Shown here piece after piece: positions 31,887 through 50,814 of a stretch of DNA of 64,000 nucleotides (positions are counted from its first letter, which is position 1; each line of letters begins with the position of its first letter). A program made the translations under genes and the position numbers. This DNA is from Sinomonas susongensis (GTDB lineage Bacteria; Actinomycetota; Actinomycetes; Actinomycetales; Micrococcaceae). The notes beneath the pieces were generated by a model, which saw nothing but the letters and a program-made list of their open reading frames with translations, was not told where the DNA came from and searched no databases. Location of the stretch: contig NZ_SSNH01000006.1 of the NCBI RefSeq assembly GCF_005877005.1, positions 124,001 to 188,000 on the forward strand. The letters are read 5' to 3'.

Positions 31887-33023
31887 TCAGCCCAAGCGGC
31901 CGTCGCCCTCGCTGGCCTCGGCGGGGGCGCCGTCGGCCGCACCCCACTCAACCCCGACCGCCTCAGCCACTGTGGCGGCTGTGTCGGCCCACGTCGGCAG
32001 GGTGGGGCGGGCCGCGCGGGCGGCTGCGGCGAACGCTGACCTCTGCCCCGCGTCGGTGAGCCACGTCCGCAGCAGCTCGCGGAGAACGGCCGCATCCCGC
32101 AATTCGCCGATGCCGCCAGCCAGCCCGACGCCGCCGGCGAGGGAGAGCGCGAGCGCCTCCTCCGCGCCCGTCCCGGCCGGAACGAGCGCGGGCACCCCGT
32201 GGGCGAGGGACTCGACGACGGACATCCCGAAGGTCTCGTGGGCGCTCGGGAGGACACTGAGATCCGCCGCGTCCCACGCTGCCTCGAGGGCTGGGCCGCG
32301 CAGCTCGCCCGTCAGGCGGACCCTCCCGGCCAGGCGTGGAGAGGCTGCAGCCCGACGAACCTCGCGCGCGTAGGCCCGGTCCGCCTGGTCCGAGCCGACG
32401 AGCGTGGCTCCCCAGGGGACGTCCAGGAGCCCCTCAAGCGCTTCGAGGAAGACGAGCTGCCCCTTGGCCGGGAGGAGCGCTGCGACGCACACGAGCTGCG
32501 CCGGCCTCGAGCCCCGCGCCTGCGGAGCTGGGTCCACGCCGGGATGGGCGACGACGGCCTCCACCCCGCAGCGCTGGACGAGGGTCGCCGCCGCGAATCG
32601 GCTCGGCGCAATCGCGCCGGAGCACGCCCCGAGGGCCGCTCGCTCAAGGCCCGCGAGCCGGGCAGCCTCGGACGCCGCGACGGAATGGGTGCCCACCGCG
32701 AGGTCGGCGAGCGAAACGTGGACGAGCAGCCAGACCTCGATCCCGGCCCGTTCCGCCTGCGCGATCTCGTCGGGGCAGCCCAGGCCCACGAGCCCGTCGA
32801 CGACGACGACGCGGCCGCCGTCGCCCGCCAGGCCCAGCAGGAGGCTCGCGAGGCGCTCGCGGTCCGCGGCGCTGCCTTCGGGCCAGTCGCCCGTGAGGCT
32901 GTATGCGTGCACCGCGATCCCTGCGTCACGGAGCGCGGCGACGAGCTTGTCGTTGTAGACGCTCCCGCCCGAATTCCAGCCGAGCGGCGCCGCGGCGACG
33001 AGGTCTATGCGATGGGGTGACAT
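31887..33023 (-). CDS. Glycosyltransferase family 4 protein
   Basis: The 378-residue protein has the GT-B fold of GT4 enzymes, which transfer a sugar from an NDP donor with retention. The N-terminal Rossmann half begins IDLVAAAPLGWNSGGSVYND, with the acceptor-side GG motif. The C-terminal half contains LVCVAALLPAKGQLVFLEAL, LVGSDQADRAYAREV and the donor-site SAHETFGMSVVESLAHGVPAL (EX7E). It is the last gene of the minus-strand arm, 13 bases after the PTPS-like gene. No strong ribosome site precedes the ATG. The neighbouring PTPS and dehydrogenase suggest a small-molecule acceptor as an alternative to a polysaccharide. Confidence 0.87.
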   Translation of the reverse strand: MSPHRIDLVAAAPLGWNSGGSVYNDKLVAALRDAGIAVHAYSLTGDWPEGSAADRERLASLLLGLAGDGGRVVVVDGLVGLGCPDEIAQAERAGIEVWLLVHVSLADLAVGTHSVAASEAARLAGLERAALGACSGAIAPSRFAAATLVQRCGVEAVVAHPGVDPAPQARGSRPAQLVCVAALLPAKGQLVFLEALEGLLDVPWGATLVGSDQADRAYAREVRRAAASPRLAGRVRLTGELRGPALEAAWDAADLSVLPSAHETFGMSVVESLAHGVPALVPAGTGAEEALALSLAGGVGLAGGIGELRDAAVLRELLRTWLTDAGQRSAFAAAARAARPTLPTWADTAATVAEAVGVEWGAADGAPAEASEGDGRLG

Positions 33024-33036
33024 GGGCCGCCCGGGC

Positions 33037-33444
33037 TCAGGGAAGGTCCAGGCTGTAGCCTGCCCACGCGTCCGGGTGTTCCCGCAGCACGACGGAGAGC
33101 CCGACGAGGCGATCGCCCTCGGCGCCCGCGGCGGCCGTGGCCTCGCCCAGCCGCCCGGCGACGTCCTCCGCGAGGTGTCGGGCCACGGCCTCCGTGGTCG
33201 AGAGCCTGCCCTCGAACGCGGGGTGCTCGTCGAGGTTCCGGTAGCGCAGGCCCTCGAGCGCCTCGCCGAGCACGCCGGAGAGCGCCCCGATGTCCATGAC
33301 CGTCGCGTTCTCGTCGAGCTCGCGCGCCCGGACGGTGAGTTCGACGACGAACGTCGCCCCATGCAGGCCCTGGGCCGGCCCGAAGGCGGGCCGCGGCAGG
33401 CTGTGGGCAATCATGACGTGGTCACGGACGGTCAGCGAATACAT
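33037..33444 (-). CDS. 6-pyruvoyltetrahydropterin synthase/QueD-fold protein, divergent active site
   Basis: The 135-residue T-fold protein keeps the PTPS layout: VMIAHSLPRPAFGPAQGLHGATFVVEL, then VMDIGAL, NLDEHPAF, and STTEAVARHLAEDV. In canonical enzymes LHGHNY supplies two zinc histidines and a Cys a few residues earlier is catalytic. Here the motif is LHGATF, so one zinc His is lost, and no Cys is present. It may catalyse a different pterin or sugar reaction, or bind a pterin only. Its start lies inside the end of the dehydrogenase gene (23-base overlap), so the two are coupled. The GT4 gene follows. Confidence 0.85.
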   Translation of the reverse strand: MYSLTVRDHVMIAHSLPRPAFGPAQGLHGATFVVELTVRARELDENATVMDIGALSGVLGEALEGLRYRNLDEHPAFEGRLSTTEAVARHLAEDVAGRLGEATAAAGAEGDRLVGLSVVLREHPDAWAGYSLDLP

Positions 33445-34480
33445 GCTCTCCCTTTGCTCCTGGGTACCGGATGACGTGGCACAGGCCGGTGCCGGCTCCC
33501 GCTTCTCCTGATGTCTCCGAGGCTAGCCCGTCCATCGCCTCCGGGAGGTCCTCGAAGTCGGTGGGGCCGCCCAGAAACGTGTCGAAGACCGGGTCTTCGA
33601 GGAGTTCGAGGGCGAGGGCCAGGCGCTGCGCCGTCGTGCGCCGATGCCTGCGGGGGAGTGCGACCTGGCCGACCTGGCTCGCCCGGATGGAGAGCCGCCG
33701 CGCGTGGAAGTCCGCACCCAGCGGAACGCTCACGGGCTGCTCGCCGTACCAGGAGAGCTCGATGATCTCCCCGTCGTCCCCCACAAGCTCGAGGCAGCGG
33801 GCGAGGCCGGGGGCGCTCGCGGAGCAGTGGACGACGACGTCGCAGTCGTCGTGCGCTTCTTCAGGGGCGGCGAAGTCGACGCCGAGTGCCTCCGCGAACC
33901 GGGCCTTGGCCGGGTCCGCGTCGACGGCCTCGAGACGGGAGAGCGGGAAGCGGCGCAGGAGTGCGAGCACAGCGCCGCCCACGAGTCCGCAGCCGACGAC
34001 GGCGACCCGGTCGCCGATGCGGGGGCTCGCGTCCCAGAGGGCGTTGACGGCGGTCTCGACGGCGCCGGCGAGCACGGCCCGGTGCGCGGGGACACCGTCG
34101 GGGACGACGGCGAGCTCGGCTGCCGGGACGACGTACCGGTCCTGATGCGGGTAGAGACAGAAGACGGTCCGGCCCACGAGCTCCGTGGGCCCCTCCTCGA
34201 CGACGCCGACCGAGAGGTACCCGTACTTCACGGGGCACGGGAAGCTGCCCTCCTGATGGGGTGCCACCATGAGGTCGGCCACGCGTTCGGGCACCTCGTT
34301 GGCATGGACCAGCCGCTCGGTGCCCCGGCTCAGGCCTGAGTACAGCGTCCGGACCAGGGCCTCGCCCTCCCGGGGCGCGGACAGGGTCTCGCGCCGGAGC
34401 TCGCCCTTCCGCGGGCCGACGGTCCAGTATGCGGTTGCAGAATAGTCGGGAGCTTTGCGTTCCTCCACGGCCTCGCTCAT
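33422..34480 (-). CDS. Zinc-type medium-chain dehydrogenase family protein
   Basis: The 352-residue MDR protein has a GroES-like N-domain (LVRTLYSGLSRGTERLVHAN) and a Rossmann domain with IGDRVAVVGCGLVGGAVLALL. The usual zinc-liganding Cys/His set of alcohol dehydrogenases is not present: FCLYPHQDRYVV replaces the expected motif. It resembles the dehydrogenase-like proteins found beside PTPS homologues in actinobacteria. A reductase acting on a pterin side chain or a sugar is plausible, but the substrate is unknown. Its ATG overlaps the stop of the upstream small helical protein gene (ATGA). Confidence 0.85.
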   Translation of the reverse strand: MSEAVEERKAPDYSATAYWTVGPRKGELRRETLSAPREGEALVRTLYSGLSRGTERLVHANEVPERVADLMVAPHQEGSFPCPVKYGYLSVGVVEEGPTELVGRTVFCLYPHQDRYVVPAAELAVVPDGVPAHRAVLAGAVETAVNALWDASPRIGDRVAVVGCGLVGGAVLALLRRFPLSRLEAVDADPAKARFAEALGVDFAAPEEAHDDCDVVVHCSASAPGLARCLELVGDDGEIIELSWYGEQPVSVPLGADFHARRLSIRASQVGQVALPRRHRRTTAQRLALALELLEDPVFDTFLGGPTDFEDLPEAMDGLASETSGEAGAGTGLCHVIRYPGAKGEHVFADRP

Positions 34481-34938
34481 CCCTTGATCGCGAGGGCTTG
34501 GGGCGCGGCCTGCTTCATGCGCGTCTGAAGCCAGCGCAGCTGGCCTTCGAGCTGCTGGCTGCATTGTTGAACGGTCTCATTGAGCTCCTTGTCCCGTAGG
34601 GCCTGCGCGGCTTGGCCGACCATGGTCCACGATGAATGTGCGAGTGTCGTCAAGAGGTACAGGTCCTGGAGGTCGCGGATGAGCCCCACGGGACCGCTGC
34701 GCGTCTCCGACAGCGTGTCGGCGTGGAGGCGTTCGGGCTCGTCGTCCACGTTGGACTCGCCGTAGCGCTCGAGGAATGGCGCGAGGGCGCGCACATGGGC
34801 GTCGCACTGCTGGGCCAGCAGCCGCGTGAGCTCCCGGACGTCGGGCTCCTCACCGTGCCCTTCGGCCACTTGGCGGTAGCTCTCCGCGAGGCTCTGCTCC
34901 GAACGGTGGAGCAGCCCGAGGTAGATGGCGATCCTCAT
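34477..34938 (-). CDS. Small helical-bundle protein coupled to the molybdo-oxidoreductase gene
   Basis: I do not recognise a family for this 153-residue protein. It is almost entirely helical with four segments, as in ferritin-like or DUF892-like bundles: MRIAIYLGLLHRSEQSLAES, VRELTRLLAQQCDAHVRALA, LIRDLQDLYLLTTLAHSSWT, and NETVQQCSQQLEGQLRWLQT. Its ATG overlaps the stop of the molybdo-oxidoreductase, with GGAGGGA upstream, and its stop overlaps the dehydrogenase start. A dedicated chaperone or electron-transfer partner for the molybdoenzyme is inferred from coupling. Confidence 0.75.
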   Translation of the reverse strand: MRIAIYLGLLHRSEQSLAESYRQVAEGHGEEPDVRELTRLLAQQCDAHVRALAPFLERYGESNVDDEPERLHADTLSETRSGPVGLIRDLQDLYLLTTLAHSSWTMVGQAAQALRDKELNETVQQCSQQLEGQLRWLQTRMKQAAPQALAIKG

Positions 34939-37388
34939 GCCTGTCCCTCCTCGGGCCCGGCGTGGGCCTCGGGCCCGGCGTGGGCCTCGGTTCCGGCGCG
35001 GGCGGGAACAGGACGGGGTGAGGCGCCGGCGGGGTCGGCGAGCTCGACGCGGACGGTCGCCGTCTTGAAGACCGGCTGCTTCGACACGGGGTCCCACTCG
35101 GTGACGGTGAGCTCGTTGGCGGCACGTGGTTTCCCGTCGGGGGCCCCGCCGACGTCCCAGTAGCCGTAGTGGAATGGCTCGAACACGGTGCCCCGCGCCA
35201 TCTTCCGGACGCGGAGCCTCGCGACCACCGCGCCGCGCCGCGACGTGACGCGGAGGAAGTCGCCGTCGTCCGCTCCAAGCTCGGCGGCGTCCTCGGCGCA
35301 CATCTCGATCCACGCCTCGGGCGCCGCCCGTCGGAGCTCCGGCGAGCGGGCGGTCTTGGTCCGGGTGTGGAAGTGGTACACGGTGCGGCCCGTCGTGAAC
35401 TGGAAGGGGTACTCGCTGTCGGGCGCCTCGGCGGGTGGAACGACGTCGGCCGTCTTGAACCTGGCCCTCCCGTCGTAGCGGGCCGCGCGAACGGCCTGGG
35501 GGCCGACCGTGGCGCCCGTGAGGAGGTCGTGGCCGTACGTCTCGCAGTAGTCCGGCGCCGTGGGAAACACCCCGTCAGTGTAGAGGCGGACGGTTCCCTT
35601 CTCGGTGCCCTCGGGGAACGGCCATTGAAGACCCGTGTTGCCCCTCAGCCGTTCGTAGCTGAGACCGGTGTAGTCGCAGGGGCGCCCCCGCGTGCACTCG
35701 CGCCATGCGTCGAAGACCTCCTCGGGGGAGCTCCACGGGAGGAGCGGGCTGCCGTCGAGGCGGCGGAAGTCCATGCGCCGGGCGTAGTCGAGGAAGATGT
35801 CGAGGTCGCTGTGGGCTTCTCCGGGCGGCTCGACCGCCTTGTCGGAAAGGTGCACGGTGCGGTTGACGTTGGTGAACGTCCCCGCCTTCTCGCCCCAGCC
35901 TGCGGCCGGCAGGACGACGTCCGCCTCCTGCGCCGTCTCATTGAGGTAGAGGTCCTGGACCACGAGGAAGAGCTCGGGCTTGCGCAGGATCCGGCGGATG
36001 CGCGCCAGGTCCGGCATGGAGACGGCGGGGTTCGTCGCGGAGATCCACAGGAAGTTGATCGAGCCCTGCTCGGCGTACCGGAAGATCTGCAGGGCGTGGG
36101 TGGGCGGGGCCCAGTCGGGAATGATCGCCGGGTCCACGCCCCAGAGCTCCGCGAGCTCCTCGACGTGCTCGGGGTTCTCCCAGTTGCGGAAGCCCGGCAG
36201 GTCGCCGTCGGCCCCGCACTCCCGGTTGTTCTGCGCCGTCGGCTGCCCGTTCATCTGCAGGACGCCGCAGCCCGGCCGCCCGAGGAGACCCCGGAGCAGG
36301 TGGAGATTGTTGACCTGGCACGAAGACGCCGTCGCCTGGGTGGACTGGTAGAAGCCCTGCAGGACGGTCGAGAGCACACGCTGCGACGTACCGAAGATCT
36401 CGGCGGCACGGCGGATGTCCGCGGCGTCCACCCCGCAGAGTTCGGCGGCGGCCTCGGGCGTCCACGGCTCGGCGGCGGCGGCGAGCTCGGAGAAGCCGGT
36501 TGTGTGCGCGGCGACGTAGTCGTCGTCGGTCCAGCCGTTCCGGATCACCTCCCGGATGAGCGCCTACATGAGGGGAAGGTTCGTGCCCGGCCTCACGGCG
36601 AGGTGGACGTCGGCCGCCTTGGCAACGGGGGTCAGTCGCGGGTCGACGCAGACGACGAGCGGCGGCTGGGGGCCAGCGAGCCGGTCGAGGACCCGGGCCC
36701 ACAGCACTGTGTTCGTCTCGGCCATGTTGTGCCCGAACAGGAAGATCGCGTCGCAGTGCTCGATGTCCTCGTACGAGCCGGGCTGCCCGTCGGCGCCGAA
36801 GCTCTCCTTCATCGCCTGGGCGGCGGTGGCCGTGCACAGCCGGGTGTTGCCGTCCATGTGCGGGGTCCCGATGCCGGCCTTGCCGATCATCGCGAGTGCG
36901 TAGTACTCCTCGAGGAACAGCTGGCCGCTCGTGTAGAACCCGTGGCTCAGCGGGCCGCGCTCCTCGAGCAGCGCCTTGCTCCGCTCGACGATCCGCCCCA
37001 TGGCCTCGTCCCAGCTCGCCTCGACGAGCTTGCCCCCCTCGCGAACGAGGGGACGGGTCAGCCGATCGGGGTTGGAGACGCCCTGCCAGCTTGCGTAGAG
37101 GCCCTTCGGGCCGAGCCGGCCGTGGTTGACCGCGTCGATCTCCCGGCCGCGGACCCCGACCATACGGCCGTCCTTGACTGCGATGTCGCAGCCGCAGCCG
37201 TTGCTGCACAGGACGCAGGCCGACTGGACCCACCGGTCGACGTCGGACTCGGTGAGGCCTTCGGCCAGCTGCACGTCCACGCGGACAGGCCATTCTCCAC
37301 CCCGCGCGACGGGCGTTCGTGGGCCCCAGACATCCTTGATGCGGTCAGGGATTTCTTCGACGCGAGCGCGTTCACCACTGTCGGACAC
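34935..37388 (-). pseudogene. Molybdopterin oxidoreductase interrupted by an in-frame amber codon
   Basis: An 817-codon frame encodes a molybdopterin-bis-MGD enzyme (formate dehydrogenase/assimilatory nitrate reductase class) but contains TAG at codon 275 (36564-36566). Before it lie the Fe4S4 motif CVLCSNGCGC (C58-C67), and DGNTRLCTATAAQAMKESFG with the likely Mo-ligand Cys. After it the domain continues without shift: ALIREVIRNGWTDDDYVAAH, then DLYLNETAQEADVVLPAAGWGEKAGTF and a C-terminal MopB binding domain. The reading frame is intact on both sides, so this is a nonsense mutation or a sequencing error, probably from CAG. A GTG restart at 36548 would lack the Fe-S domain. The start GTG has GGAAGGA upstream. 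Confidence 0.85.
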
Positions 37389-37469: not shown

Positions 37470-38444
37470 CTACGGCGCCGCGAGGTGCCTCGGCTCATGG
37501 GCCGTGCCGCGTTCCTCGAGGCGGGCGACGGCGTCGAGGACGTGCCCGGGCCACACCGCGAGCATCGCGGGGTCGGGGAGGTCCGCGAACGGGTCGCCGT
37601 GACGCACCGCCGGGTCGGTCAGCACGACGTGCGGCCCGTCCTCGGGAGGCCCCCACTGCTCGGGGGTAGCTGGGCCGAAGATGATGACGGAGGGGGTCCC
37701 GTAGGCCGTCGCGATGTGCCCGGCCGACGTGTCGGCGGTGACGACGAGGCGGGCGGCCGCGACCGCGGCGAAGAACGACGGGAGGTCCCAGCGGCCGGCG
37801 ACCACGGCAGTCTCCGGGAGGCCGGCGCCGTGGGCGACGGCGGCGGCGCGCGTGCGGTCCTCCTCGCCACCCGTCACGAGCACGTCGTGCCCCCGATAGT
37901 GGAGCTCGCGGGCGACGCCGGCGAACCGCTCCACGGGCCAGCGCCGGCTCCCGTGGGCGGCACCGACGTGGATGAGGGTCGCGCCGTCGGCCGGCGCCGG
38001 AGCCTCCGGTGGGAGCAGCCGGTAGTCGTCAGCACTTCCTGGCAGCCCGTGCCAGCTGAGCAGGCGCACCCAGCGCTCGCGCTCGTGCAGAGTGTCGTCC
38101 CATTCCGGGCCGGCCCAGCCGGGCGCCCGGTGTCCGATGCGGTGCTCAGGCAAGAGCTCCTCGAGGCGCGTCCGGCTCTCGATCCCTTTGCCGTGGAAAT
38201 TGACGGCGACGTCGACCCGGCCGGCGTACGGAATCGGGTCGTCGAGTCCCGGCGTCGGAAGGTGCCGGTTGATGCCGCCCACGAGCGGGACGACCGGCTC
38301 GAGCCACTTCGGCGCGGCGAGCACGAGTTCGTGGTCTGGGAATCCCGCGCGGAGACCCCGGAGGCCCGGCACGGAGACGAGCAGGTCGCCGAGCTTGAGT
38401 GCTCGGAGTACCAGCAGGACAGGTCGTTCCGAACCCGCTGTCAC
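37470..38444 (-). CDS. Glycosyltransferase family 9 (heptosyltransferase-like) protein 1
   Basis: The 324-residue protein is of the ADP-heptose:LPS heptosyltransferase family. It begins with LLVLRALKLGDLLVSVPGLR, the N-terminal GT9 motif, and has the C-domain IHVGAAHGSRRWPVERFAGVAREL and VVTADTSAGHIATAYGTPSV, where the nucleotide sugar binds. The GTG start at VTAGSERP is preferred because GGAGG lies 5 bases upstream; ATG codons at 38459 and 38456 overlap that ribosome site. It is the first gene of the minus-strand arm, divergent from gmhB. In LPS-free organisms GT9 proteins act on other glycans or metabolites. Confidence 0.88.
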   Translation of the reverse strand: MTAGSERPVLLVLRALKLGDLLVSVPGLRGLRAGFPDHELVLAAPKWLEPVVPLVGGINRHLPTPGLDDPIPYAGRVDVAVNFHGKGIESRTRLEELLPEHRIGHRAPGWAGPEWDDTLHERERWVRLLSWHGLPGSADDYRLLPPEAPAPADGATLIHVGAAHGSRRWPVERFAGVARELHYRGHDVLVTGGEEDRTRAAAVAHGAGLPETAVVAGRWDLPSFFAAVAAARLVVTADTSAGHIATAYGTPSVIIFGPATPEQWGPPEDGPHVVLTDPAVRHGDPFADLPDPAMLAVWPGHVLDAVARLEERGTAHEPRHLAAP

Positions 38445-38584
38445 GGCAGCCTCCATCATCGAAAGCGACAATGCCCTTGGCTTGAGCGAATCGAGTTCTC
38501 CACGCGGGCTTGGGAACCGCCCCGAGGAGAAGTTGCAGGAGAAAAGAAAGTTTATTGTAGCTTCTCCCGGGGCAGATTCCCGTC

Positions 38585-39166
38585 ATGGAGAAAGCCCGTC
38601 TGGACCAGTCATGGGCGACCACCCCGGCCGCCGTGCTCTTCGACCGCGACGGTACCCTCGTGCACGACGTCCCCTACAACCGAGACCCGCAAATGGTCAG
38701 CCCGGTGCCCGGCGCTTCCGAGGCGCTCGGGCGCTTGCGCGCGGCAGGCGTGCGGACGGGCGTCGTCACCAACCAGTCCGGCATCGGGCGCGGCCTCATG
38801 GGCTCTGTCGATGTCTACCGCGTGAATCGGCGCGTCGACGAGCTGCTCGGGCCGTTCGACGTATGGCGCGTCTGCCCGCACCACCCCGAGCAGGGCTGCC
38901 GCTGCCGCAAGCCCAGGCCAGGCCTCGTCCTCTCCGCGTGCCGGGCGCTCAGGGTCGCGCCCGAGGATGTGGTCGTCGTGGGGGACATCGGCACCGACAT
39001 GGAGGCCGCCGGCCGGGCCGGGGCCCGAGGCATCCTCGTTCCGACTCCCGTGACCCTCCCAGAGGAAGTCGAGGCAGCGCCCGCCGTCGCGCCTGACCTG
39101 CTCTCCGCCGTCATGCTCGCCCTTGGCGAGTCCGTGGAGTCTGCCCCTGCGGGGAACGGGCCGTGA
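38585..39166 (+). CDS. gmhB: D-glycero-D-manno-heptose 1,7-bisphosphate phosphatase (HAD IIIA)
   Basis: The 193-residue phosphatase has the HAD nucleophile motif VLFDRDGTLV (Asp20, Asp22), VTNQSGIGRGL, and the zinc loop CPHHPEQGCRCRKPRPG (Cys97, His99, Cys105, Cys107) that defines the GmhB group. DVVVVGDIGTDMEAAGRAGAR holds the final acidic pair. It removes the C7 phosphate of heptose bisphosphate in ADP-heptose synthesis; a histidinol-phosphatase role is less likely because of the neighbours. It begins the plus-strand arm and overlaps the next GT9 gene by four bases. Confidence 0.9.
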   Translation: MEKARLDQSWATTPAAVLFDRDGTLVHDVPYNRDPQMVSPVPGASEALGRLRAAGVRTGVVTNQSGIGRGLMGSVDVYRVNRRVDELLGPFDVWRVCPHHPEQGCRCRKPRPGLVLSACRALRVAPEDVVVVGDIGTDMEAAGRAGARGILVPTPVTLPEEVEAAPAVAPDLLSAVMLALGESVESAPAGNGP

Positions 39167-40191
39167 AGCGTGTCCTCGTCGCGCGTCTCGACAGCCTCGG
39201 CGATGTCGTCCTCTCGGGGCCGGCGGTCCGTGCCGTCGCGGCGAAGGCCGAGGCCGTCCTGCTGACCGGACCCCGGGGCGCGGCGGTCGCCACGATGCTC
39301 CCCGGAGTGGCCGAGCACCTCGTGTGGGACTCACCGTGGATCGCCAACCCGGCTCCCGAGGCCACCCCACGGCATGTGCGCCGGCTCGAGCGGCTCCTCG
39401 ACCACGCTCGCGTCGACGAGGCCGTCATCCTCACCTCGTTCCACCAGTCGGCGCTCCCGCTCGCGCTCGAGCTTCGCCTGTGCGGAGTCCCGCGCATCAC
39501 CGCGCTCTCCGAGGACTACCCGGGCAGCCTCCTGGACGTGCGGGTCACGAGCGGCGACCTCCCCTGGGATCTGCACGAGGTCGACCGCGCCCTCGGCATC
39601 GCTGCGGCGGCGGGCTTCCCGCGCCCCGCGGACGACGACGGCCTTCCCGCCCTCCTGCCGCAGCCCCGGTCGTCGCTGCGCCCCTCGGGCGAATACGTCG
39701 TGGTGCACCCGGGCGCCGACGCCCCCGCCCGGACGTGGCCAGCGGAGCACGCGGCGCGGCTCGTCTCGCTGCTCGCCGCGGAGGGCTTCCGCGTCGTCGT
39801 CACCGGGAACGACGCCGAGCGCGGCCTGACCGCGGCCGTTGCCGGTTCGCGGGGGATCGACGCGGGCGGTGCGACCGACCTCCGGGGGCTCGTCGACCTC
39901 CTCGCCGGGGCGAGCGTCGTCGTCGCCGGCAACACGGGGCCCGCGCATCTGGCCGCGGCCGTGCGGACCCCCGTCGTGAGCCTCTTCTCTCCCGTGGTCT
40001 CTGCGCGAACCTGGGCCCCGAGGGGGTCCGAGGTCGTGGTCCTCGGCGACCAGTCGGCGGCGTGCGCTGGCTCGCGGGCCCGCACCTGCCCCCTGCCGGG
40101 GCATCCGTGCCTCGCGGGCGTCACCCCGGGCGAGGTGCTGCGCGCCGTCGAACGACTCGTCTCCCACAACACGAAGGCGGTGCCCGTCTGA
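39163..40191 (+). CDS. Glycosyltransferase family 9 (heptosyltransferase-like) protein 2
   Basis: The 342-residue protein starts at a GTG overlapping the gmhB stop. It has the GT9 N-motif VLVARLDSLGDVVLSGPAVR and C-domain motifs VVVHPGADAPARTWPAEHAA and VVVAGNTGPAHLAAAVRTPVVSLF. The conserved Cys-rich tail CAGSRARTCPLPGHPCLAGVTPGEV is typical of the family. Translational coupling to GmhB supports use of the heptose nucleotide made here. The acceptor cannot be read from sequence. Confidence 0.92.
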   Translation: MKRVLVARLDSLGDVVLSGPAVRAVAAKAEAVLLTGPRGAAVATMLPGVAEHLVWDSPWIANPAPEATPRHVRRLERLLDHARVDEAVILTSFHQSALPLALELRLCGVPRITALSEDYPGSLLDVRVTSGDLPWDLHEVDRALGIAAAAGFPRPADDDGLPALLPQPRSSLRPSGEYVVVHPGADAPARTWPAEHAARLVSLLAAEGFRVVVTGNDAERGLTAAVAGSRGIDAGGATDLRGLVDLLAGASVVVAGNTGPAHLAAAVRTPVVSLFSPVVSARTWAPRGSEVVVLGDQSAACAGSRARTCPLPGHPCLAGVTPGEVLRAVERLVSHNTKAVPV

Positions 40192-43270: not shown

Positions 43271-44653
43271 ATGAAGATCGCTGTCGTCGGTGACACCCTG
43301 CTCGACATCGACCTCGTCGGCCACGCCGACCGGCTGTGCCCCGACGCGCCCGTGCCCGTCCTCGACGTGGACGACCGCCTCGAGCGGGCAGGCGGCGCCG
43401 GGCTCGTCGCGACGCTCCTTGCGGACGACGGCCACGAGGTCGATTCGGTCACCGCGCTGGGGGAGGACGACGCCGCATCCCGCCTCCGCGCGCTCCTCGG
43501 CCCCGTGCGCATCCACGCGGCACCGCTCGGAGCGCCCACTCCGGTCAAGATGCGGCTCACGGCGAGCGGCCAGCGGATCGCCCGGGTGGACGAAGGCTGC
43601 GCGACCCCTCCCTACCCGGTGGTGGACGCAGGGCTCCTGTCCGTGCTCGAGGAGGCCGACGCGGTCGTCGTCGCGGACTACGGGCGCCGTTTCACGAGCG
43701 TGCCCACGGTGCGCGCGGCCCTCGAGACGGTCGCACGCCGCGTCCCCGTCGTGTGGGACCCGCATCCCCGCGGAGCGCGGCCGATCTCGGGGGCGGCCGC
43801 CGTCACGCCGAACCTGTCCGAGCTCCTCACGTTCTCCGGCCGAGAGGTCGACGAGCCGGGCGCCGTCGCGGTCGCAGCCGGTCGCATGCGGCAACGGTGG
43901 GGGGCCCGCGCCGTCGTCGTCACGCTCGGCGAACGGGGAGCGCTCGTGTGCACGCCCGACGGCGATACCCACGTCGCGGTGCCCTCTGCGGGCCTGCGGA
44001 TCGAGGACCCGTGCGGTGCGGGGGACCGTTTCGCGTCGTCGCTCACGATCGCGCTCGCCCACGGAGAGCCGCTCGGCGCGGCCACCGAGGCCGCCGTCGC
44101 GACCGCCGCTGCGTTCCTCGCCGCGGGGGGCGTGGCCTCTCTGCGCCGCGGCGCGCAGCCCGGCTTCCCGGAAGCCGAGGGGACCGGCGCTTCCGCCGAT
44201 TCGCCCGCCGTCGCCCTTGCCCGGCGAGTCCGCGCGGCAGGCGGAACGGTTGTCGCGGCGGGCGGCTGCTTCGACCTCCTCCACGCGGGGCACCTCCACC
44301 TCCTGCAGGCGGCGCGCGCGCTCGGCGACTGCCTCATCGTGTGCCTCAACTCGGACGACTCCATCCGGCGCCTCAAGGGGCCCGGACGGCCCGTCATGAA
44401 CGAGCACGACCGCGCGGAGCTGCTCCTCGCCCTGAGCTGCGTGGATGCCGTGGAGATCTTCACGGAAGACACCCCCGAGGCCGTGCTCGAGACCCTGCGC
44501 CCCCACGTGTGGGTCAAGGGCGCGGACTACAACCCCGATGAACTCCCCGAGTCGAAGCAGCTCCGTTCGTGGGGCGGCGAGGTCGTGACCGTGCCGCTTG
44601 CGCCCGGGCGTTCGACGACGGGCCTCGCCGCGGCGATCGCAAGCCTCGGCTAG
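43271..44653 (+). CDS. hldE: Bifunctional heptose 7-phosphate kinase/heptose 1-phosphate adenylyltransferase
   Basis: The 460-residue fusion combines a PfkB/ribokinase domain (1-295) with a nucleotidyltransferase domain (about 325-460). The first shows VVGDTLLDIDLVGHADRLCP and DPCGAGDRFASS, the phosphotransfer loop with catalytic Asp. The second shows AGGCFDLLHAGHLHLLQAAR (HxGH motif) and VWVKGADYNPDELPES. It performs two steps of ADP-heptose synthesis, kinase C1 phosphorylation and AMP transfer, with GmhB acting between them. It follows gmhA directly. A second fusion lies downstream at 48.3 kb. The C-terminal codons are the origin of a tandem 16-base repeat. Confidence 0.93.
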   Translation: MKIAVVGDTLLDIDLVGHADRLCPDAPVPVLDVDDRLERAGGAGLVATLLADDGHEVDSVTALGEDDAASRLRALLGPVRIHAAPLGAPTPVKMRLTASGQRIARVDEGCATPPYPVVDAGLLSVLEEADAVVVADYGRRFTSVPTVRAALETVARRVPVVWDPHPRGARPISGAAAVTPNLSELLTFSGREVDEPGAVAVAAGRMRQRWGARAVVVTLGERGALVCTPDGDTHVAVPSAGLRIEDPCGAGDRFASSLTIALAHGEPLGAATEAAVATAAAFLAAGGVASLRRGAQPGFPEAEGTGASADSPAVALARRVRAAGGTVVAAGGCFDLLHAGHLHLLQAARALGDCLIVCLNSDDSIRRLKGPGRPVMNEHDRAELLLALSCVDAVEIFTEDTPEAVLETLRPHVWVKGADYNPDELPESKQLRSWGGEVVTVPLAPGRSTTGLAAAIASLG

Positions 44654-44746
44654 TACAGGCCTCGGCTCGTACGGGCCTCGGCTCGTACGGGCCTCGGCTA
44701 GTACGGGCCTCGGCTGGCGAAGGCCTCGGCTGTTTGAAGCTCGGCT
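44643..44746 (+). repeat. Tandem 16-bp repeats beginning inside the hldE stop region
   Basis: GCCTCGGCT recurs at 44643, 44659, 44675, 44691, 44707 and 44723, with a degenerate copy at 44739. Spacing is 16 bases throughout; the unit is GCCTCGGCTMGTACGG. The first copy is the last coding part of hldE plus its TAG, so the array looks like slippage amplification of the gene end. It lies in the gap before the SDR gene. Confidence 0.92.
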
Positions 44747-44774
44747 ACTGGATGACAGAGAGAGGAACGAATTG

Positions 44775-45512
44775 ATGACGCAAGGAATGGACACCATCCC
44801 GGAGACGATGACCGACCCAAGCCACCCCCTCAAGGGCGCACGCGTCCTCGTGACCGGCGGCGCCTCGGGGCTCGGCGCCGCGGTGGTCGAGGCGCTCACG
44901 GCCGAGGGCGCGCTCCCGCTCGTCCTCGACCGCCAGCCGGTCGAAGCGCCGGCCCGCGGCTGGGTCGTCGACCTCTCGGGGCGTGAGGCCGCGGAAGCCG
45001 CGGTCGCCCAGGCGGCCGAGGACGCCGGCGGCATCGATGCGATCGTGTGCGCGGCCGGCATCGACCGCTGCGGGGAGCTCAACGAGGTTCCTGCGGAGGA
45101 ATGGGAAAAAGTGATCTCGGTGAATCTGCTCGGCACGGCGGCCGTGGTCCGCGCGGCGCTGCCGCACCTCCTGCGCAGCCACGGCCGAGTCGTCACGGTC
45201 GCCTCGACGCTCGGCCTGCGCGGAGCGGGCGGGGCGACGGCCTACTGCGCCTCGAAGTTCGGCGTGATCGGGTTCAGCCGGGCCCTCGCGGCCGAGCTCA
45301 AGGGCAGGGTCGGCGTGACTACCCTCATCCCCGGCGGCATGGACACCGCGTTCTTCGACGACCGCCCGGAGCAGTACAAGCCGCACGACCGGACCAACCT
45401 CAACCGCCCCTCCGACACGGCGCGCTCAGTGATCTTCGCGCTCTCCCAGCCCCGCGGCTGCGAGGTCCGCGAGCTCCTCGTGATGGGCTCGATGGAAGAT
45501 TCCTGGCCGTAA
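44775..45512 (+). CDS. Classical SDR-family oxidoreductase of the heptose locus
   Basis: The 245-residue SDR has the loop VLVTGGASGLGAAVVEA (25-41) and the catalytic triad Ser144, Tyr157 and Lys161 (STLGLRG..AYCASKFGVIG). It probably oxidises or reduces a sugar intermediate. It is not an HldD epimerase: HldD is an extended SDR of ~310 residues. The ATG follows GAGAGGAACGAATTG; an in-frame reading further upstream runs through the 16-base repeats and is rejected. A strong hairpin ends this plus-strand run. Confidence 0.88.
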   Translation: MTQGMDTIPETMTDPSHPLKGARVLVTGGASGLGAAVVEALTAEGALPLVLDRQPVEAPARGWVVDLSGREAAEAAVAQAAEDAGGIDAIVCAAGIDRCGELNEVPAEEWEKVISVNLLGTAAVVRAALPHLLRSHGRVVTVASTLGLRGAGGATAYCASKFGVIGFSRALAAELKGRVGVTTLIPGGMDTAFFDDRPEQYKPHDRTNLNRPSDTARSVIFALSQPRGCEVRELLVMGSMEDSWP

Positions 45513-45541
45513 CCTCAGTGGCTTGATCGACGAGACCCGAG

Positions 45542-45587
45542 CTGACGGACGAGGCCGCAGGTGAATCCCTGCGGTCTCGTCCGTCAG
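45542..45587. terminator. Bidirectional hairpin between convergent genes
   Basis: CTGACGGACGAGGCCGCAGG pairs with CCTGCGGTCTCGTCCGTCAG over 20 bases with one mismatch around a short loop. It separates the plus-strand SDR gene and the convergent minus-strand GT9 gene, and could terminate both. Confidence 0.8.
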
Positions 45588-45627
45588 GTGCGGTCTCGCT
45601 GAGACGCATCCCAGCTGAGAGGGCGGT

Positions 45628-46725
45628 TCAGTGGCCCGCGAGGAGATCCTTCGCGTCCTGCAGGACTGCCTCGGCGGGCACGGCGTCCACCCACGTCACG
45701 GCGTGGTCGCAGCGCCGCCCGAACGGGTCTGTGCCGTCCGCGCCGCACACGGGGCAGTCGCCCCGCCATGCGATCTGCACCCGGTGGAGGCGCCGCCCCT
45801 CCGGCCCGGCGTTGATGACGTTCCCCACCCAGTAGACCGACGCCGTCGGGGTCCCGAGCGCCTGCGCGAGGTGCCGCGGGCCGCTGTCGTTCGCGACGAC
45901 GAGGCGCGCGTGCGCCAGCAGCCCCACGAGTGCCCTCACGCTCGTGCGTCCGGCCGCCGAGGAGATGAGCACGTCGCGCCCTGCGAGGTCCAGGGCCTTC
46001 TCCGCGATCCCATCCGCGAGCTCCTTCTCGCTCGGGTCGCCCACCACGATGACCTGCCAGCCGTCCAGTGCCAGCTCGGCGGCTACGGCGGCAAAGCGCT
46101 CTGCCGGCCAGCGGCGCCGGGGATCGGTCGCGCCCGCATGCACGACGACGAGTCCCGGCGCCCCTGGCACGAGCCACGGTCGCGCTGCTTCGGCATCCGC
46201 GGGCGTGGCGACGAAGCGCGGTTCGTGGTCGAGGGGCGCCGCGCCCGCGAGGGCGACGACCTCGAGCCAGCGGGCAGCCTCGCGCTGGTAGTACAGGTGG
46301 GGGAGCATCCGCTCGAGCGGCTCTGCGTCCGGCGTCGCGCAGCCGACCGTGTGCCGGGCCTCGAGCGCGTTGACGAAGGGGTTGGAGTTCCGCCCGCCGC
46401 CGTGGAGCTGGAGGGCGAGGTCCACGCCGTCGGCCCGCAGCTTCTCGATGACCTCCATGGTCTCGCGGTGCTCGCGCCAGCCGCGGCCGTCGGGCGTCAC
46501 GGCGTCCGGGAAGACAGGCACGACGACGGCCCGGTCCACGGGGCTCGGGCGGTCCTCGAGGAGGCTGGCCAGGAGGGGGGTCGTGAGCATGACCTGCTCC
46601 GCCGTCGGGTAGACGGCGCGGATCGCCTCGAGTGCGGGCAGCGTCGAGAGCAGGTCGCCGATCCCGCCTCCGCGCAGGATCGCGATGCGCTCGACGTCGT
46701 CGAAGAGCTCAGGGGTGTCTGTCAT
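45628..46725 (-). CDS. Glycosyltransferase family 9 (heptosyltransferase-like) protein 3
   Basis: The 365-residue protein has the GT9 start IAILRGGGIGDLLSTLPAL and later VVVHAGATDPRRRWPAERFA and VVANDSGPRHLAQALGTPTASVYW. The Cys-rich tail IAWRGDCPVCGADGTDPFGRRC is retained. It is the only minus-strand gene within this part of the locus, between convergent and divergent partners, so it has its own promoter. It raises the number of heptosyltransferase-like proteins in the locus to three. Confidence 0.92.
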   Translation of the reverse strand: MTDTPELFDDVERIAILRGGGIGDLLSTLPALEAIRAVYPTAEQVMLTTPLLASLLEDRPSPVDRAVVVPVFPDAVTPDGRGWREHRETMEVIEKLRADGVDLALQLHGGGRNSNPFVNALEARHTVGCATPDAEPLERMLPHLYYQREAARWLEVVALAGAAPLDHEPRFVATPADAEAARPWLVPGAPGLVVVHAGATDPRRRWPAERFAAVAAELALDGWQVIVVGDPSEKELADGIAEKALDLAGRDVLISSAAGRTSVRALVGLLAHARLVVANDSGPRHLAQALGTPTASVYWVGNVINAGPEGRRLHRVQIAWRGDCPVCGADGTDPFGRRCDHAVTWVDAVPAEAVLQDAKDLLAGH

Positions 46726-46826
46726 GGTGGAGGGCTACCCTCCCCGCGGATCTCGGAAACCCTGACCCGCTGCTTGGGGAGACCGCCCGCGGGTAACCCC
46801 TCGATGCACTCAATCAGGAGGATTTG

Positions 46827-48290
46827 ATGAGCCCCGCTTTGCCCGATCGGGCAGCACAGCCACAGCCTCTCACCGCGCCCCTTCCCGTCGTGGAAGGTGC
46901 GGCGCCCGAGGCTCAGACCACGAACGAGGGAGGCCATCGCCGGGACCCGCGTACCGGTGGGCTGCTTGCCTCCGTAGAGTTCAGCGATCCGGACCGCGCC
47001 GAAGTGGTCCTCCGCACTGCCCGCCAGGCCTGGGTCGAGTGGCGGCGCTCGCCCCAAGCCGACCGGGCGGCAGCACTGCGCGAACTGGCCACCGCCGTCG
47101 ACGACGCGGCGGAGGACCTTGCCGACCTCAACCTCCGCGAGACGGGGCGCATCTTCGCGGATTCGCTCGCGGGCATCCGTGCAGGGGCGGAAGCCCTGCG
47201 CCGCTACGCCGAGCTGAGCCTCCTGCGCTCCGGCCCCAGCCTCGCGGGAGTGGTCTCCGGCCTCGACTTCACCGTTTTCGAACCCTACGGAGTCGTCCTC
47301 GGACTCACCTCGTGGGACGACCCCGTCGCGACCGCGTGTGCGGTCGCCGGGGCGAGCCTCGCGGCCGGCAACGTGGCCGTGCTCAAGCCGAGCGAGCGGT
47401 GCCTGCTTGTCGCACGACGGCTGGGCGAGGTCTTCGAATCGGTGACCCCGCCGGGCGTCCTGAGCACGGTCCTCGGGGACGCCGAGCTCGGGGAGGCCCT
47501 CGTGCGGGACCGCCACGTCGACGCCGTCGTGCACGTCGGGGGAGCGGACATCGCGGAGAACCTCGCCGAGGCCGCGTATCGCGCCGGCGCCCGCCTCGTC
47601 CGCATCCCCTCGGGCAACGGGGCCGTGATCGTGGACCGCGGCGTGGACGTCGAGTGGGCCGCCTCGTGCGTGGCGGAGTCCGCCTTCCAGCACGCGGGTC
47701 AGCTCCGGTGGTCGGCTGGCCGGGTGTTCGTCATGGACGAGATCGAGGAGCCCTTCCTCGGTGCGCTCGCGGGTGAGGCCGCGGCGTGGGCCGACCACCA
47801 GCGCGTGGGACCGCTCGTCGACGACGAGGCGCGCCGGGCCGTCCACGATTCCGTCACAGCTTCCATCCACAGCGGAGCCGTCGCGGTCGTCGGCGCGAGC
47901 ATCCCGCCCGGACCAGGCTCCTACTACCCCCCGACCGTCCTCGGCGCGTGCACTCCGCTCATGCCCGTCATGCGCGAGGACGTGCACGGGCCGATCGCGG
48001 CCCTGATGGGGGTGCGCAGCTTTGAGGAGGCGCTCGCGGAGGCCGCCGAACCGCCGTCCGGCCCGGCGGCGACCGTCCTGACTCGGGACATCGGGCACGC
48101 CCAGCTGGCCGCGGCCGAGCTGCCCGTGGCTTCCCTCACGATCAACGGCATCCCCGGCGGCTCCGACGCCCCCAGCGTCCCGCAGAGCGGGATGCCTGCA
48201 GGTTTCGGTCCGGCTCTCCTCGACGAGCTGAGCCGGCCCAAGGCTGTCCACCTCGAACCCCCCGTCACTGCGCGAGCAAGGAGACCCTGA
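46827..48290 (+). CDS. Aldehyde dehydrogenase-like protein lacking all catalytic residues
   Basis: The 487-residue protein has the ALDH fold along its whole length, with LTSWDDPVATACAVAGASLA, ASLAAGNVAVLKPSE and PMREDVHGPIAALMGVRSFE-like segments. Three key sites are replaced. The oxyanion Asn in WNFP is Asp164 in WDDP, the general-base Glu of the LELGG motif is missing (VRIPSGNGAV at 258-267), and the nucleophile Cys of GQxC is Arg294 (GQLRWSAGR). It should not oxidise aldehydes and may be structural or bind a nucleotide. GGAGG is 5 bases before the ATG. It overlaps no gene but is followed after 2 bases by hldE2. Confidence 0.9.
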   Translation: MSPALPDRAAQPQPLTAPLPVVEGAAPEAQTTNEGGHRRDPRTGGLLASVEFSDPDRAEVVLRTARQAWVEWRRSPQADRAAALRELATAVDDAAEDLADLNLRETGRIFADSLAGIRAGAEALRRYAELSLLRSGPSLAGVVSGLDFTVFEPYGVVLGLTSWDDPVATACAVAGASLAAGNVAVLKPSERCLLVARRLGEVFESVTPPGVLSTVLGDAELGEALVRDRHVDAVVHVGGADIAENLAEAAYRAGARLVRIPSGNGAVIVDRGVDVEWAASCVAESAFQHAGQLRWSAGRVFVMDEIEEPFLGALAGEAAAWADHQRVGPLVDDEARRAVHDSVTASIHSGAVAVVGASIPPGPGSYYPPTVLGACTPLMPVMREDVHGPIAALMGVRSFEEALAEAAEPPSGPAATVLTRDIGHAQLAAAELPVASLTINGIPGGSDAPSVPQSGMPAGFGPALLDELSRPKAVHLEPPVTARARRP

Positions 48291-48292
48291 GT

Positions 48293-49924
48293 ATGGGAGC
48301 CGAGCACCTGATCGAGATCCTGCACGACAAGCGCCCGAGCGTCCTCGTCGTCGGTGACGTCCTGCTCGACCGGCGCTGGGAGGGGACGGCCGAGCGGCTG
48401 TGCCGTGAAGGCCCTGTTCCCGTGCTCGACGTGAAACGCACTCTCGACGCGCCAGGAGGCGCGGCCAACACGGCGATGAACCTCGCGGCCCTCGGCGCCC
48501 GGGTCCGGCTCGTCGGCGTCGTGGGCGACGACGAACCCGGCGCAGCGCTCGTCGCGAGGCTTGCGGAGGCTGGGGTCGACACGGACTCGATCGTGCGGCT
48601 TCCAGGGCGCAGTACCTCGGTCAAGGCCAGGCTCGTCGCAGAGGGCCACCTGCTCCTGCGCTCCGACTTCTGCCGGACCGCGGACGACGACGAGTCACGC
48701 GAGGCGTGCGAACGGGCCCTCGCGGCGTTCGGCGAGGCGGACGCCGTCGTGCTCTGCGACTACGGCCTTGGCACGCTCGCTGCCCTCGACCGCTCTGCCG
48801 CCCGGGCCCGCGCCCGTGCGCTCGTGGTCGACGCACGCCATCCGGCGGGCTGGGCGAGCCTGCACGCGGACGTCGTGACACCCAACGCAAGCGAGGCCGC
48901 CGAGCTCCTTGGCTCGGCCGCCCCGCGCGAGGACCGGGTCGCGTGGGCCGCCGCGCACGCCGCGGAACTGAGCCGCGCCACGGGCGCCCGGCACACCCTC
49001 GTGACCCTCGACCGCGACGGCACGATCCTCCTCGGCCCGGACCAGGCCGACCAGTCCGGCCAGTCCGACCCCGTGCGGCACAGGACCCGGGCCCGCCCGG
49101 CACCTGAGCAGAATGCCGTCGGCGCGGGCGACACCTTCGTCGCCGGGCTCGCGCTCGGCCTCGCCGCAGGCCTCCCGATCGACGACGCGGCCGACGTCGG
49201 GCAGGCCGCCGCGGACGTCGTCGTCGAGTCTCCCGGCACGTCGACGTGCACGGCGGAGCGGCTCCTCGCGGAGCTCGGCGGGGCCGCGGGGGCCGAAGGC
49301 GCGAACAACACCGGCGTGAACAACACCGGCACAACCAGCACCGGTACGGGCACGACGGCGGTCGAGGAGCGGGCGCTCAAGCGGCCGAGCGCCGTGCGGA
49401 CTTGGGCGGAGACGCGGCGTGCGGTCGAGGAGGCGCGCGAGGCGGGGTTCGCCGTCGTCCTCACGAACGGGGTCTTCGACGAGCTGCACCGCGGGCACAC
49501 CGCCTTCCTCGACGAGGCCGCCCGGCACGGCGGCCTGCTCGTCGTCGGCATCAATTCGGACGACTCCGTGCGCCGGCTCCGGGGCGCGCCGCCCGTGGTG
49601 GGCGAGGAGGACCGCGCGGCCGTCGTCGCGGCCCTCGGCTCGGTGGACTGCGCCGTGGTCTTCGACTCCGAGACGGCCGTGCCGCTCATCCGCGAGCTTC
49701 GCCCGGACGTGTACGTCAAGGGTGGCGACTACCTTCCCGGCATGCTCGCCGAGCAGTCCGCCGTGCGCGAGGTCGGGGGCCGGCTCGAGCTGCTCGGCTA
49801 CGTCGAGCGGAAGGCCCCCGGCGTGTCCCGGGGACGCCCCGTCGGCGCCGACGCGAGCGTCGATGCAGGGTCAGACGCGAGCGGACTCGAGGATGCCGCC
49901 TCGGACTGGGGAGAACTCTCGTGA
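48293..49924 (+). CDS. Second bifunctional HldE-type kinase/adenylyltransferase
   Basis: The 543-residue fusion again has a PfkB domain (VLVVGDVLLDRRWEGTAERL; QNAVGAGDTFVAGLALGL) and a C-terminal nucleotidyltransferase domain (VVLTNGVFDELHRGHTAFLD with HxGH; VYVKGGDYLPGMLAEQSAV). The two are joined by a low-complexity linker NNTGVNNTGTTSTGTGTT near residue 345. It is longer than the first copy and diverges across the kinase domain, so the paralogues may prefer different heptose phosphates or act at different times. The GT2 gene begins within its stop (GTGA). Confidence 0.9.
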   Translation: MGAEHLIEILHDKRPSVLVVGDVLLDRRWEGTAERLCREGPVPVLDVKRTLDAPGGAANTAMNLAALGARVRLVGVVGDDEPGAALVARLAEAGVDTDSIVRLPGRSTSVKARLVAEGHLLLRSDFCRTADDDESREACERALAAFGEADAVVLCDYGLGTLAALDRSAARARARALVVDARHPAGWASLHADVVTPNASEAAELLGSAAPREDRVAWAAAHAAELSRATGARHTLVTLDRDGTILLGPDQADQSGQSDPVRHRTRARPAPEQNAVGAGDTFVAGLALGLAAGLPIDDAADVGQAAADVVVESPGTSTCTAERLLAELGGAAGAEGANNTGVNNTGTTSTGTGTTAVEERALKRPSAVRTWAETRRAVEEAREAGFAVVLTNGVFDELHRGHTAFLDEAARHGGLLVVGINSDDSVRRLRGAPPVVGEEDRAAVVAALGSVDCAVVFDSETAVPLIRELRPDVYVKGGDYLPGMLAEQSAVREVGGRLELLGYVERKAPGVSRGRPVGADASVDAGSDASGLEDAASDWGELS

Positions 49925-50814
49925 CCGCGCGCGGCCCAGAGCTGTGGGGCGAGCAGTCTGGTCTCCCGGAGGCTGGGAAGCCCCCGGTCGAGGTCCTCAT
50001 CCCGACGCGCAATCGGCCGGCCGAGCTCGCGACGACGCTCGCGGGGCTCGCAGCGCAGACCGACGTCGACTTCGGCGTCGTCGTGAGCGACCAGAGCGAC
50101 GGCGAACCGGGCTGGAAGCATCCGGCCGCGCAGGCCATGATCCGCGTCCTCGAGGCACAGGGCCGGCCCGTCGCAGTGCATCGCCACGGGCCGCGCCAAG
50201 GCCTTGCCGAGCACCGCCAGTTCCTCCTCGAGCAGTCCGCCGCGCCGAGGATCCTCTTCCTGGATGACGACGTCTGGCTCGCGCCTGGCGGACTGCGCAC
50301 GCTCCGCGAGGCCCTCGACGTGACGGGGGCGGGTTTCGTCGGCATGGCCGTCCAAGGCCTTTCCTATCTCGGCGACGAGCGCGACCGTGAGCTCGAGCCC
50401 TTCGAACCCTGGGAGGGCCCCGTCGAGCCCGAGCGGCTCGGACCCGACGAGCCGGGGTTCGAGCGCTGGACTCTGCACAACGCGGCCAACCCGGCGCATC
50501 TGGCCGCCCGCGCCCTCACTGCCGGGCGACTGCGCACCGGTGAGTGGACCGCGTACCGCGTCGCGTGGGTCGGCGGCTGCGTGCTGTTCCGCCGGGACGC
50601 GCTCGTCGAATGCGGCGGCTTCGAATTCTGGCGCGACCTTCCTCCCGTCCACGCGGGCGAGGACGTCGTCGCCCAGTGGCGCGTCATGGAACGCTACGGG
50701 GGCGCGGGCGTCCTGCCATCCCACGCTGTCCACCTCGAGAGCCCGACTACGGTTCCGGACCGCGACGCCGAGGCGACCGAGGTGCTGGGGAGCGCGGGCC
50801 AGGCGGCGCGCTGA
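49921..50814 (+). CDS. Glycosyltransferase family 2 protein
   Basis: The 297-residue GT-A enzyme has VEVLIPTRNRPAELATTLAG at the N-terminus, the metal-binding ILFLDDDVWLAPGG near 115, and GGCVLFRRDALVECGGFEFW followed by AGEDVVAQWRVMERYGG, the catalytic-base region of family 2. It is an inverting transferase probably adding one residue of the glycan made by the locus. It starts at a GTG overlapping the HldE2 stop, and is the last gene of the plus-strand arm. Confidence 0.9.
   Translation: MTARGPELWGEQSGLPEAGKPPVEVLIPTRNRPAELATTLAGLAAQTDVDFGVVVSDQSDGEPGWKHPAAQAMIRVLEAQGRPVAVHRHGPRQGLAEHRQFLLEQSAAPRILFLDDDVWLAPGGLRTLREALDVTGAGFVGMAVQGLSYLGDERDRELEPFEPWEGPVEPERLGPDEPGFERWTLHNAANPAHLAARALTAGRLRTGEWTAYRVAWVGGCVLFRRDALVECGGFEFWRDLPPVHAGEDVVAQWRVMERYGGAGVLPSHAVHLESPTTVPDRDAEATEVLGSAGQAAR

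Follow-up and report, generated by a model that had tools for sequence, protein, structure and literature searches.

A 64-kb window of the Sinomonas susongensis genome was analysed, in which a cluster of heptose-nucleotide and glycosyltransferase genes lies, and the 20 proteins called at 31887-53534 were scanned by hmmscan against Pfam and NCBIfam. The gene calls and family matches delimited a unit of 12 genes, g35-g46 (37470-50814), that holds one GmhB, one GmhA, two HldE fusions, three GT9 proteins, three other glycosyltransferases, an SDR dehydrogenase and an aldehyde dehydrogenase (Table 1, with the gene labels used throughout, g29-g47). The best family matches of the individual GmhA, GmhB, HldE and GT9 genes had E-values from 1e-21 to 5e-93. 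Since these matches exceed the Pfam cut-offs and fall under the NCBI equivalog cut-offs, the GmhA, GmhB, HldE and GT9 calls are family-level assignments only. An earlier sequence-only reading of 31887-50814 had listed GmhA, GmhB, two HldE fusions, three GT9 proteins and four other glycosyltransferases, all of which were recovered by the scans, the last four being g29, g38 and g39 (GT4) and g46 (GT2).

Table 1. Genes of the heptose cluster and its neighbours in the window. Identities are to the counterparts in the operon of locus L184; the last column gives the occurrence among the 80 named loci (see text).
Gene	Position	Strand	Assignment	cwg counterpart (identity)	Match or motif	Named loci
g29-g31	31887..34480	-	GT4, PTPS-like and ADH trio			
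g33/g34	34935..37280	-	Oxidoreductase, formate dehydrogenase/nitrate reductase-like			
g35	37470..38459	-	GT9, heptosyltransferase-like	cwgJ (45%)	PF01075 E 1e-21; WaaF 1psw and GT9 3tov	
g36	38585..39166	+	GmhB-like HAD-IIIA phosphatase	cwgD (68% over shared part)	Pfam/NCBIfam; 4pnh	
g37	39163..40191	+	GT9, heptosyltransferase-like	cwgE (55%)	PF01075 E 9.5e-22; WaaF 1psw	
g38	40191..41258	+	GT4-like glycosyltransferase of the core	cwgF (54%)	Glyco_trans_1_4 E 8.9e-9	
g39	41288..42577	+	MshA-like GT4	cwgG (52%)	248.8 bits vs. MshA cut-off 462.5	
g40	42574..43269	+	GmhA-type sedoheptulose-7-phosphate isomerase	cwgH (58%)	SIS_2 E 4.7e-23; PRK13936 E 3.5e-48; 5i01	
g41	43271..44653	+	HldE1 kinase/nucleotidyltransferase fusion	cwgI (48%)	PfkB and CTP_transf_like; LAPGRSTT	
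g42	44775..45512	+	SDR dehydrogenase, usually adjoining HldE1		adh_short E 1.2e-41	72/80
g43	45628..46725	-	Third GT9, second module		PF01075 E 9.6e-23; 3tov	45/80
g44	47004..48290	+	Aldehyde dehydrogenase (ALDH), second module		Aldedh E 3e-74	40/80
g45	48293..49924	+	HldE2 fusion, STT motif absent		PfkB and CTP_transf_like; GAGD and HxGH kept	
g46	49921..50814	+	GT2 glycosyltransferase, second module		Glycos_transf_2 E 4e-12	27/80
g47	51398..51997	+	DUF6328			

All families of the ADP-heptose pathway, namely isomerase, kinase, phosphatase and nucleotidyltransferase, are present in the cluster, with activity on sedoheptulose 7-phosphate as a prediction. The nearest solved relatives by sequence are the phosphoheptose isomerase 5i01 for g40, the D,D-heptose 1,7-bisphosphate phosphatase 4pnh for g36, the heptose 7-phosphate kinase 4e84 and the putative cytidylyltransferase 5x9q (which we take to be of the HldC type) for both g41 and g45, and WaaF or the GT9 protein 3tov for g35, g37 and g43. 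The GT9 domains resemble WaaC/WaaF and would presumably use a heptose donor, and by its family content the 12-gene cluster looks built for making and attaching heptose sugars. Profile searches were run on the source genome and 14 control genomes. GT9 matched four times in the source genome, three of them inside the cluster, and in 5 of the 14 controls, with no match in Corynebacterium glutamicum or Bacillus subtilis; the fourth GT9 match (L004, G000:C6:48611-49090) stands outside the cluster, beside an MshA-like GT4 gene (G000:C6:49441-50196). LpxC matched in 4 of the 14 controls and not in the source genome, in agreement with the proposed absence of lipopolysaccharide (LPS) from this lineage. 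HldD gave nine sub-threshold matches in the source genome, the best at 131 bits vs. a cut-off of 274.6, and because none exceeded the cut-off, the D,D form is suggested to be used as such. A remnant of LPS synthesis was rejected on the same two results, no LpxC and no HldD over the cut-off. As for g39, a role as the MshA of mycothiol synthesis is unlikely because a better MshA is encoded elsewhere in the genome (at C1:273891, 504 bits).

Conservation across the class was then quantified. For the g41 (HldE1) protein, an E-value of 1e-3 gave matches in 43 of 58 relatives, source genome included, though many weak ones resembled kinases or nucleotidyltransferases of other kinds; at 1e-40, 69 of the 296 class genomes had a match. 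At the stricter threshold, 8 of the 27 genomes of genus g65 were matched (hand count); this genus is taken to be Streptomyces, as its HldE proteins fall among those of named Streptomyces in the tree. The window proteins were mapped onto 140 loci, comprising 80 loci of named organisms (the best 80 of at least 340 confirmed loci, selected by similarity to g41) and 60 further stretches; three strains are present in both sets, some loci are cut at contig ends, and four of the 60 stretches are centred on an HldE2-type gene without g41. With core genes sought within about 10 kb of HldE, all seven genes g35-g41 were found together in 58 of the 80 named loci and 42 of the 60 further stretches, mostly in the same order. 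This linkage is not chance. The named hosts include Sinomonas, Arthrobacter, Pseudarthrobacter, Curtobacterium, Microbacterium, Rathayibacter and Brevibacterium as well as Amycolatopsis, Lentzea, Parafrankia, Actinomadura and Streptomyces, so that the core extends from Micrococcaceae to Streptomycetaceae. Scattered and unlinked heptose genes in relatives, named beforehand as the outcome that would speak against such a locus, were looked for with the core, and the seven-gene linkage was found instead; a heptose-nucleotide and glycosyltransferase locus in an LPS-free lineage had been rightly proposed.

The core corresponds to a known operon of Streptomyces, cwg, which has reportedly borne the name 'cell wall glycan' operon since 2002 (Hong et al. 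2002, as cited by others). In the literature, S. coelicolor cwg (SCO6179-6190, cwgA-L) is described as a 12-gene sigma-E target with a predicted cell wall glycan as product, and among its genes SCO6186 is given as a putative phosphoheptose isomerase and SCO6187 as a bifunctional enzyme (PMC6767563, PMC5839063, PMC3902916). Vancomycin induces the operon, which is in part dependent on sigma-E (PMC6767563); salt induces cwgA (PMC13011467), and cwg genes respond to the loss of ArgR (PMC5839063). For the divergent SCO6178, the annotation differs between two papers, being deacetylase or glycoside hydrolase (PMC6767563, PMC13011467). A Frankia gene annotated as 'ADP-heptose:LPS heptosyltransferase' is likewise up under salt (PMC5563000). 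The published 29-nt sigma-E promoter of cwg was used as a tag to find the operon in 392 genomes of the Streptomyces-type genus (that of G225). With up to 3 mismatches it occurred in nine of them, exactly only once, in G574; a degenerate pattern of the promoter matched none of the 296 class genomes. Around seven of the nine matches (L184-L190), 20 kb were examined. In G574 (L184), the promoter is followed after 147 bases, the published distance, by an operon of 12 genes, and a polysaccharide deacetylase gene lies on its other side; the exact promoter match, this spacing and the number of genes lead us to infer that G574 is S. coelicolor or a near relative. Genes 4-10 of this operon are the counterparts of g36, g37, g38, g39, g40, g41 and g35, in that order (identities in Table 1); NDP-sugar epimerase (NDP, nucleoside diphosphate), carbamoyltransferase and GT2 genes precede them, and the last two genes are GT2. 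The operon is also held by L185, L188 and L190, in L185 in full by tblastn only, owing to gaps in the gene calls. L186, L187 and L189 carry a near-match to the promoter and a neighbouring deacetylase gene with little or no cwg operon. The description of the locus as new thus fails for the core, which consists of cwgD-J counterparts: the core is of the known cwg type, and the five other genes are a lineage-specific extension.

Two types of locus were distinguished by what accompanies the core. Among 132 core loci, 47 have cwgB and neither g43 nor g45, 70 have g43 or g45 and no cwgB, and 15 have none of the three; one count per strain, with three second copies removed, gives 47, 67 and 15 of 129. 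No unselected cwgB match at 1e-10 fell in the g43/g45 group or in the group with neither. The two types never share a locus, an exclusion that holds per locus and not per genome. On an HldE1 tree with 130 distinct rows, three changes suffice to account for the two types, and twelve if the loci of neither type form a third state; few independent events therefore separate the types. In detail, a member of the window's own family (G028, L052) carries the cwgB type, G072 combines a cwgB-type core with an HldE2 locus apart from it (L080/L081), and in G133 (L086/L087) and G084 (L089/L088) a plain core is accompanied by an HldE2 locus at another place. These HldE2-type loci of other families (L081, L087 and L088) stand apart from the core beside a GT9 gene, in L087 and L088 beside a GT2 gene too. 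The exclusion was not retained as strong functional evidence, being weakened by the few tree changes, the second copies, the cut-short loci and the separate HldE2 loci.

The two HldE proteins differ in the STT motif. STTR5 is described as the hallmark of heptose nucleotidyltransferases that are promiscuous for nucleoside triphosphates (commentaries PMC11573728, PMC11461863); the LAPGRSTT of g41 is this hallmark, and RST[TS] occurs in 113 of 136 g41-type proteins. In g45 the kinase motif GAGD and the transferase motif HxGH are kept and the STT motif is absent. By an automatic test for S-[ST]-[TSVQ] after KGGDY, the HldE2 motif was present in 54 of 57 loci outside Sinomonas, the remaining three having STA there, and missing in nine of the ten Sinomonas loci (window included; L037 and L095 are one strain). 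The tenth, L040, matches only through a later GSTV, as judged by eye. Because the STT motif is lost, we propose that HldE2 of Sinomonas may be a kinase with an impaired transferase half.

Within Sinomonas the locus varies between genomes. HldE had no match in 4 of 15 genomes (G001, G003, G007 and G014), G011 (L229) holds HldE fragments only, the locus of G002 (L045) is incomplete, and in G013 the HldE1 match is in two pieces. In the decaying copies of G002 and G011, HldE1 is in pieces and g39 is still nearly full-length. At the empty site of G001, about 2 kb separate g31 from g47, and in G003 and G014 about 1.3 kb separate g28 from g47; in G007, g47 is missing as well. The locus is dispensable; its loss seems to have occurred in place. 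Presence, absence and decay at one site are common for surface glycans. The gene g47, found in 14 of the 15 Sinomonas genomes, lies at the edge of the cluster, or of the site where it is absent, in the Sinomonas stretches that were mapped.

Beside the unit, 31887-37280 comprises a GT4 gene (g29), a PTPS (g30), an ADH (g31), a DUF2383-like gene (g32) and a molybdopterin oxidoreductase (g33/g34). Only one of the 80 named loci has g29-g33 and two have g34, where a 10-kb flank would miss g29 and part of g30 in a window-like layout, not g31-g34. A PTPS is encoded in every one of the 15 Sinomonas genomes, the four lacking HldE among them. It is close to the heptose genes in G000 (the source genome), G006, G009 and G010 only, and in the others is on another contig or hundreds of kb distant. 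The whole interval 31887-50814 was therefore rejected as one unit, on the rarity of the flanking genes and the independence of PTPS from HldE. Of the grouping first proposed, the heptose and glycosyltransferase genes stand, while the GT4 gene g29, the PTPS, the ADH and the oxidoreductase are neighbours only. The ADH, PTPS-like and GT4 trio is kept together away from a heptose locus in four Sinomonas genomes without one (L207-L210), and may, as a guess, belong to a pterin-related glycoside pathway. The oxidoreductase reads as one gene with an in-frame TAG at codon 239, a site that is open in four relatives (L035, L046, L064 and L150); either the gene is disrupted or the TAG is a sequence error.

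Taken together, the locus is probably of the cwg type and makes a short heptose-containing oligosaccharide for the cell envelope. On this proposal, the GmhA-type isomerase g40 would convert sedoheptulose 7-phosphate to heptose 7-phosphate, the kinase domain of HldE would form heptose 1,7-bisphosphate, the GmhB-like g36 would remove the 7-phosphate, and the transferase domain of HldE1 would complete ADP-D,D-heptose. The GT9 and GT4/GT2 enzymes might then assemble the oligosaccharide on the cytoplasmic side, and export and anchoring genes elsewhere in the genome might join it to the envelope; three LCP-family genes were found elsewhere in the source genome.

Several results weigh against an envelope glycan of the cwg type. 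Family scans and a simple hydropathy scan of the cluster showed no flippase, polymerase, ligase or multi-pass membrane protein; the hydropathy scan gave only single hydrophobic stretches, in g38 and g39. Further, cwgA, B, C, K and L had no tblastn match at 1e-10 within the 64-kb window, no sigma-E-like site was found in the g35/g36 intergenic stretch of the window, and upstream of g36 such a site occurred in 3 of 53 divergent loci (5.7%) vs. 3.0% of shuffles. Sigma-E control of the Sinomonas-type locus found no support. Three of the seven promoter-matched loci are without the full operon (fragments in L186, none in L187 and L189), and for cwg itself 'cell wall glycan' is itself a prediction (PMC6767563). 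Moreover, in the available part of a report on Sinomonas gamaensis NEAU-HV1, whose genome has the cluster (L095), galactose, mannose and rhamnose are given as whole-cell sugars and no heptose is listed (PMC6617354). Heptose may escape routine sugar analysis, but these sugars speak against a heptose polymer in large amounts. In a literature search outside which most subscription papers lay, no chemical product of cwg, no heptose glycan in the walls of these genera and no other use of ADP-heptose in Actinobacteria were recognised.

The same results bear on three other explanations. A diffusible heptosylated product of the cluster, an antibiotic-like metabolite in the manner of septacidin or hygromycin B, appears rather unlikely. 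Most metabolite clusters do not recur across families as distant as Micrococcaceae and Streptomycetaceae, unlike the core, and no polyketide synthase, non-ribosomal peptide synthetase, aminotransferase, nucleoside or aminocyclitol enzyme was found among the 20 scanned proteins; cwg, besides, acts as an envelope-stress operon (PMC6767563). Such a product would nevertheless agree with the lack of visible export and wall ligase genes in the cluster, with its patchy presence and decay within Sinomonas, with the NEAU-HV1 sugars (PMC6617354), and with the documented ADP-heptose of Streptomyces, which a review, as far as available, ties to septacidin and hygromycin B (PMC10221265).

Known GT9 heptosyltransferases use a membrane lipid acceptor. 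This counts for a second alternative, in which g39 starts the product on an inositol-type acceptor and GT9 enzymes lengthen it, giving either a membrane glycolipid or a pseudo-oligosaccharide in soluble form. Also for this, g39 is the second-best MshA match of the genome, the cluster is without a multi-pass membrane protein, and S. gamaensis NEAU-HV1 has phosphatidylinositol and four unidentified glycolipids (PMC6617354, available part). However, likeness to MshA reflects the broad GT4 fold, carries little information on the acceptor and in g39 is far below the MshA cut-off, and we consider this origin unlikely. Very improbable is an annotation carry-over of 'heptose', with the GmhA, HldE and GT9 homologues handling sugars other than manno-heptose: the scores below the equivalog cut-offs and the missing STT motif of g45 would fit it, whereas the isomerase, phosphatase, kinase and transferase of one pathway are linked with GT9 across the class, and g41 carries the STTR5 hallmark.

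Beyond the envelope oligosaccharide preferred here, a wider scheme may be sketched, which as a whole is doubtful. The Actinomycetia might have a heptose-oligosaccharide core in common across the class, completed in one of two mutually exclusive ways, either carbamoylated (the cwg type, with NDP-sugar-epimerase and GT2 genes) or with a second heptose (GT9-ALDH-HldE2-GT2). In the second form, oxidation of a heptose may fall to the SDR and ALDH, and HldE2 may act for another activated heptose that differs from the first. In Sinomonas, HldE2 would by now have only its kinase role and would supply HldE1. The glycan would then correspond, in actinobacteria, to the heptose core of LPS, and selection would retain or remove it in the way it does phage receptors. 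Linking cwg to a class-wide core with two alternative extensions guides the choice of strains and mutants for comparison. Should the product contain manno-heptose, NDP-heptose would be made by many Gram-positive bacteria of soil and plants, and this molecule is sensed by vertebrate ALPK1 (commentary on Tang et al. 2024: PMC11573728, PMC11461863).

Compared with the LPS inner-core pathway (GmhA-HldE-GmhB-HldD and WaaC/WaaF), the locus has the same donor-synthesis families and GT9 transferases, but its genome is without LpxC and without HldD over the cut-off, and the partner glycosyltransferases are others. With the septacidin and hygromycin B pathways it shares an ADP-heptose-type precursor in an actinomycete; it differs from them in having no metabolite scaffold genes, a distinction drawn without sequence comparison of those clusters. 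Isomerase, kinase, phosphatase and didomain nucleotidyltransferase with STTR5 are common to it and to the NDP-heptose enzymes of Tang et al. 2024, which the commentaries describe as widespread across kingdoms; in their available parts, roles other than in envelope components, protein glycosylation and natural products are treated as an open question, and a Sinomonas-type locus is unmentioned (PMC11573728, PMC11461863). The cwg operon is the nearest system, with cwgD-J in the order of the window core apart from g35, which in the window is inverted and stands upstream of the others. In contrast to cwg, the window is without cwgA (NDP-sugar epimerase), cwgB (carbamoyltransferase), cwgC/K/L (GT2) and a sigma-E-like promoter, and adds an SDR, a third GT9, an ALDH, a second HldE and another GT2. 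Lacking the promoter and the cwg genes that flank the core, the window locus counts by strict membership as a cwg-like variant rather than a cwg operon, and its new parts are the extension module, the pattern of two locus types, the loss within the genus and the Sinomonas-specific loss of STT in HldE2.

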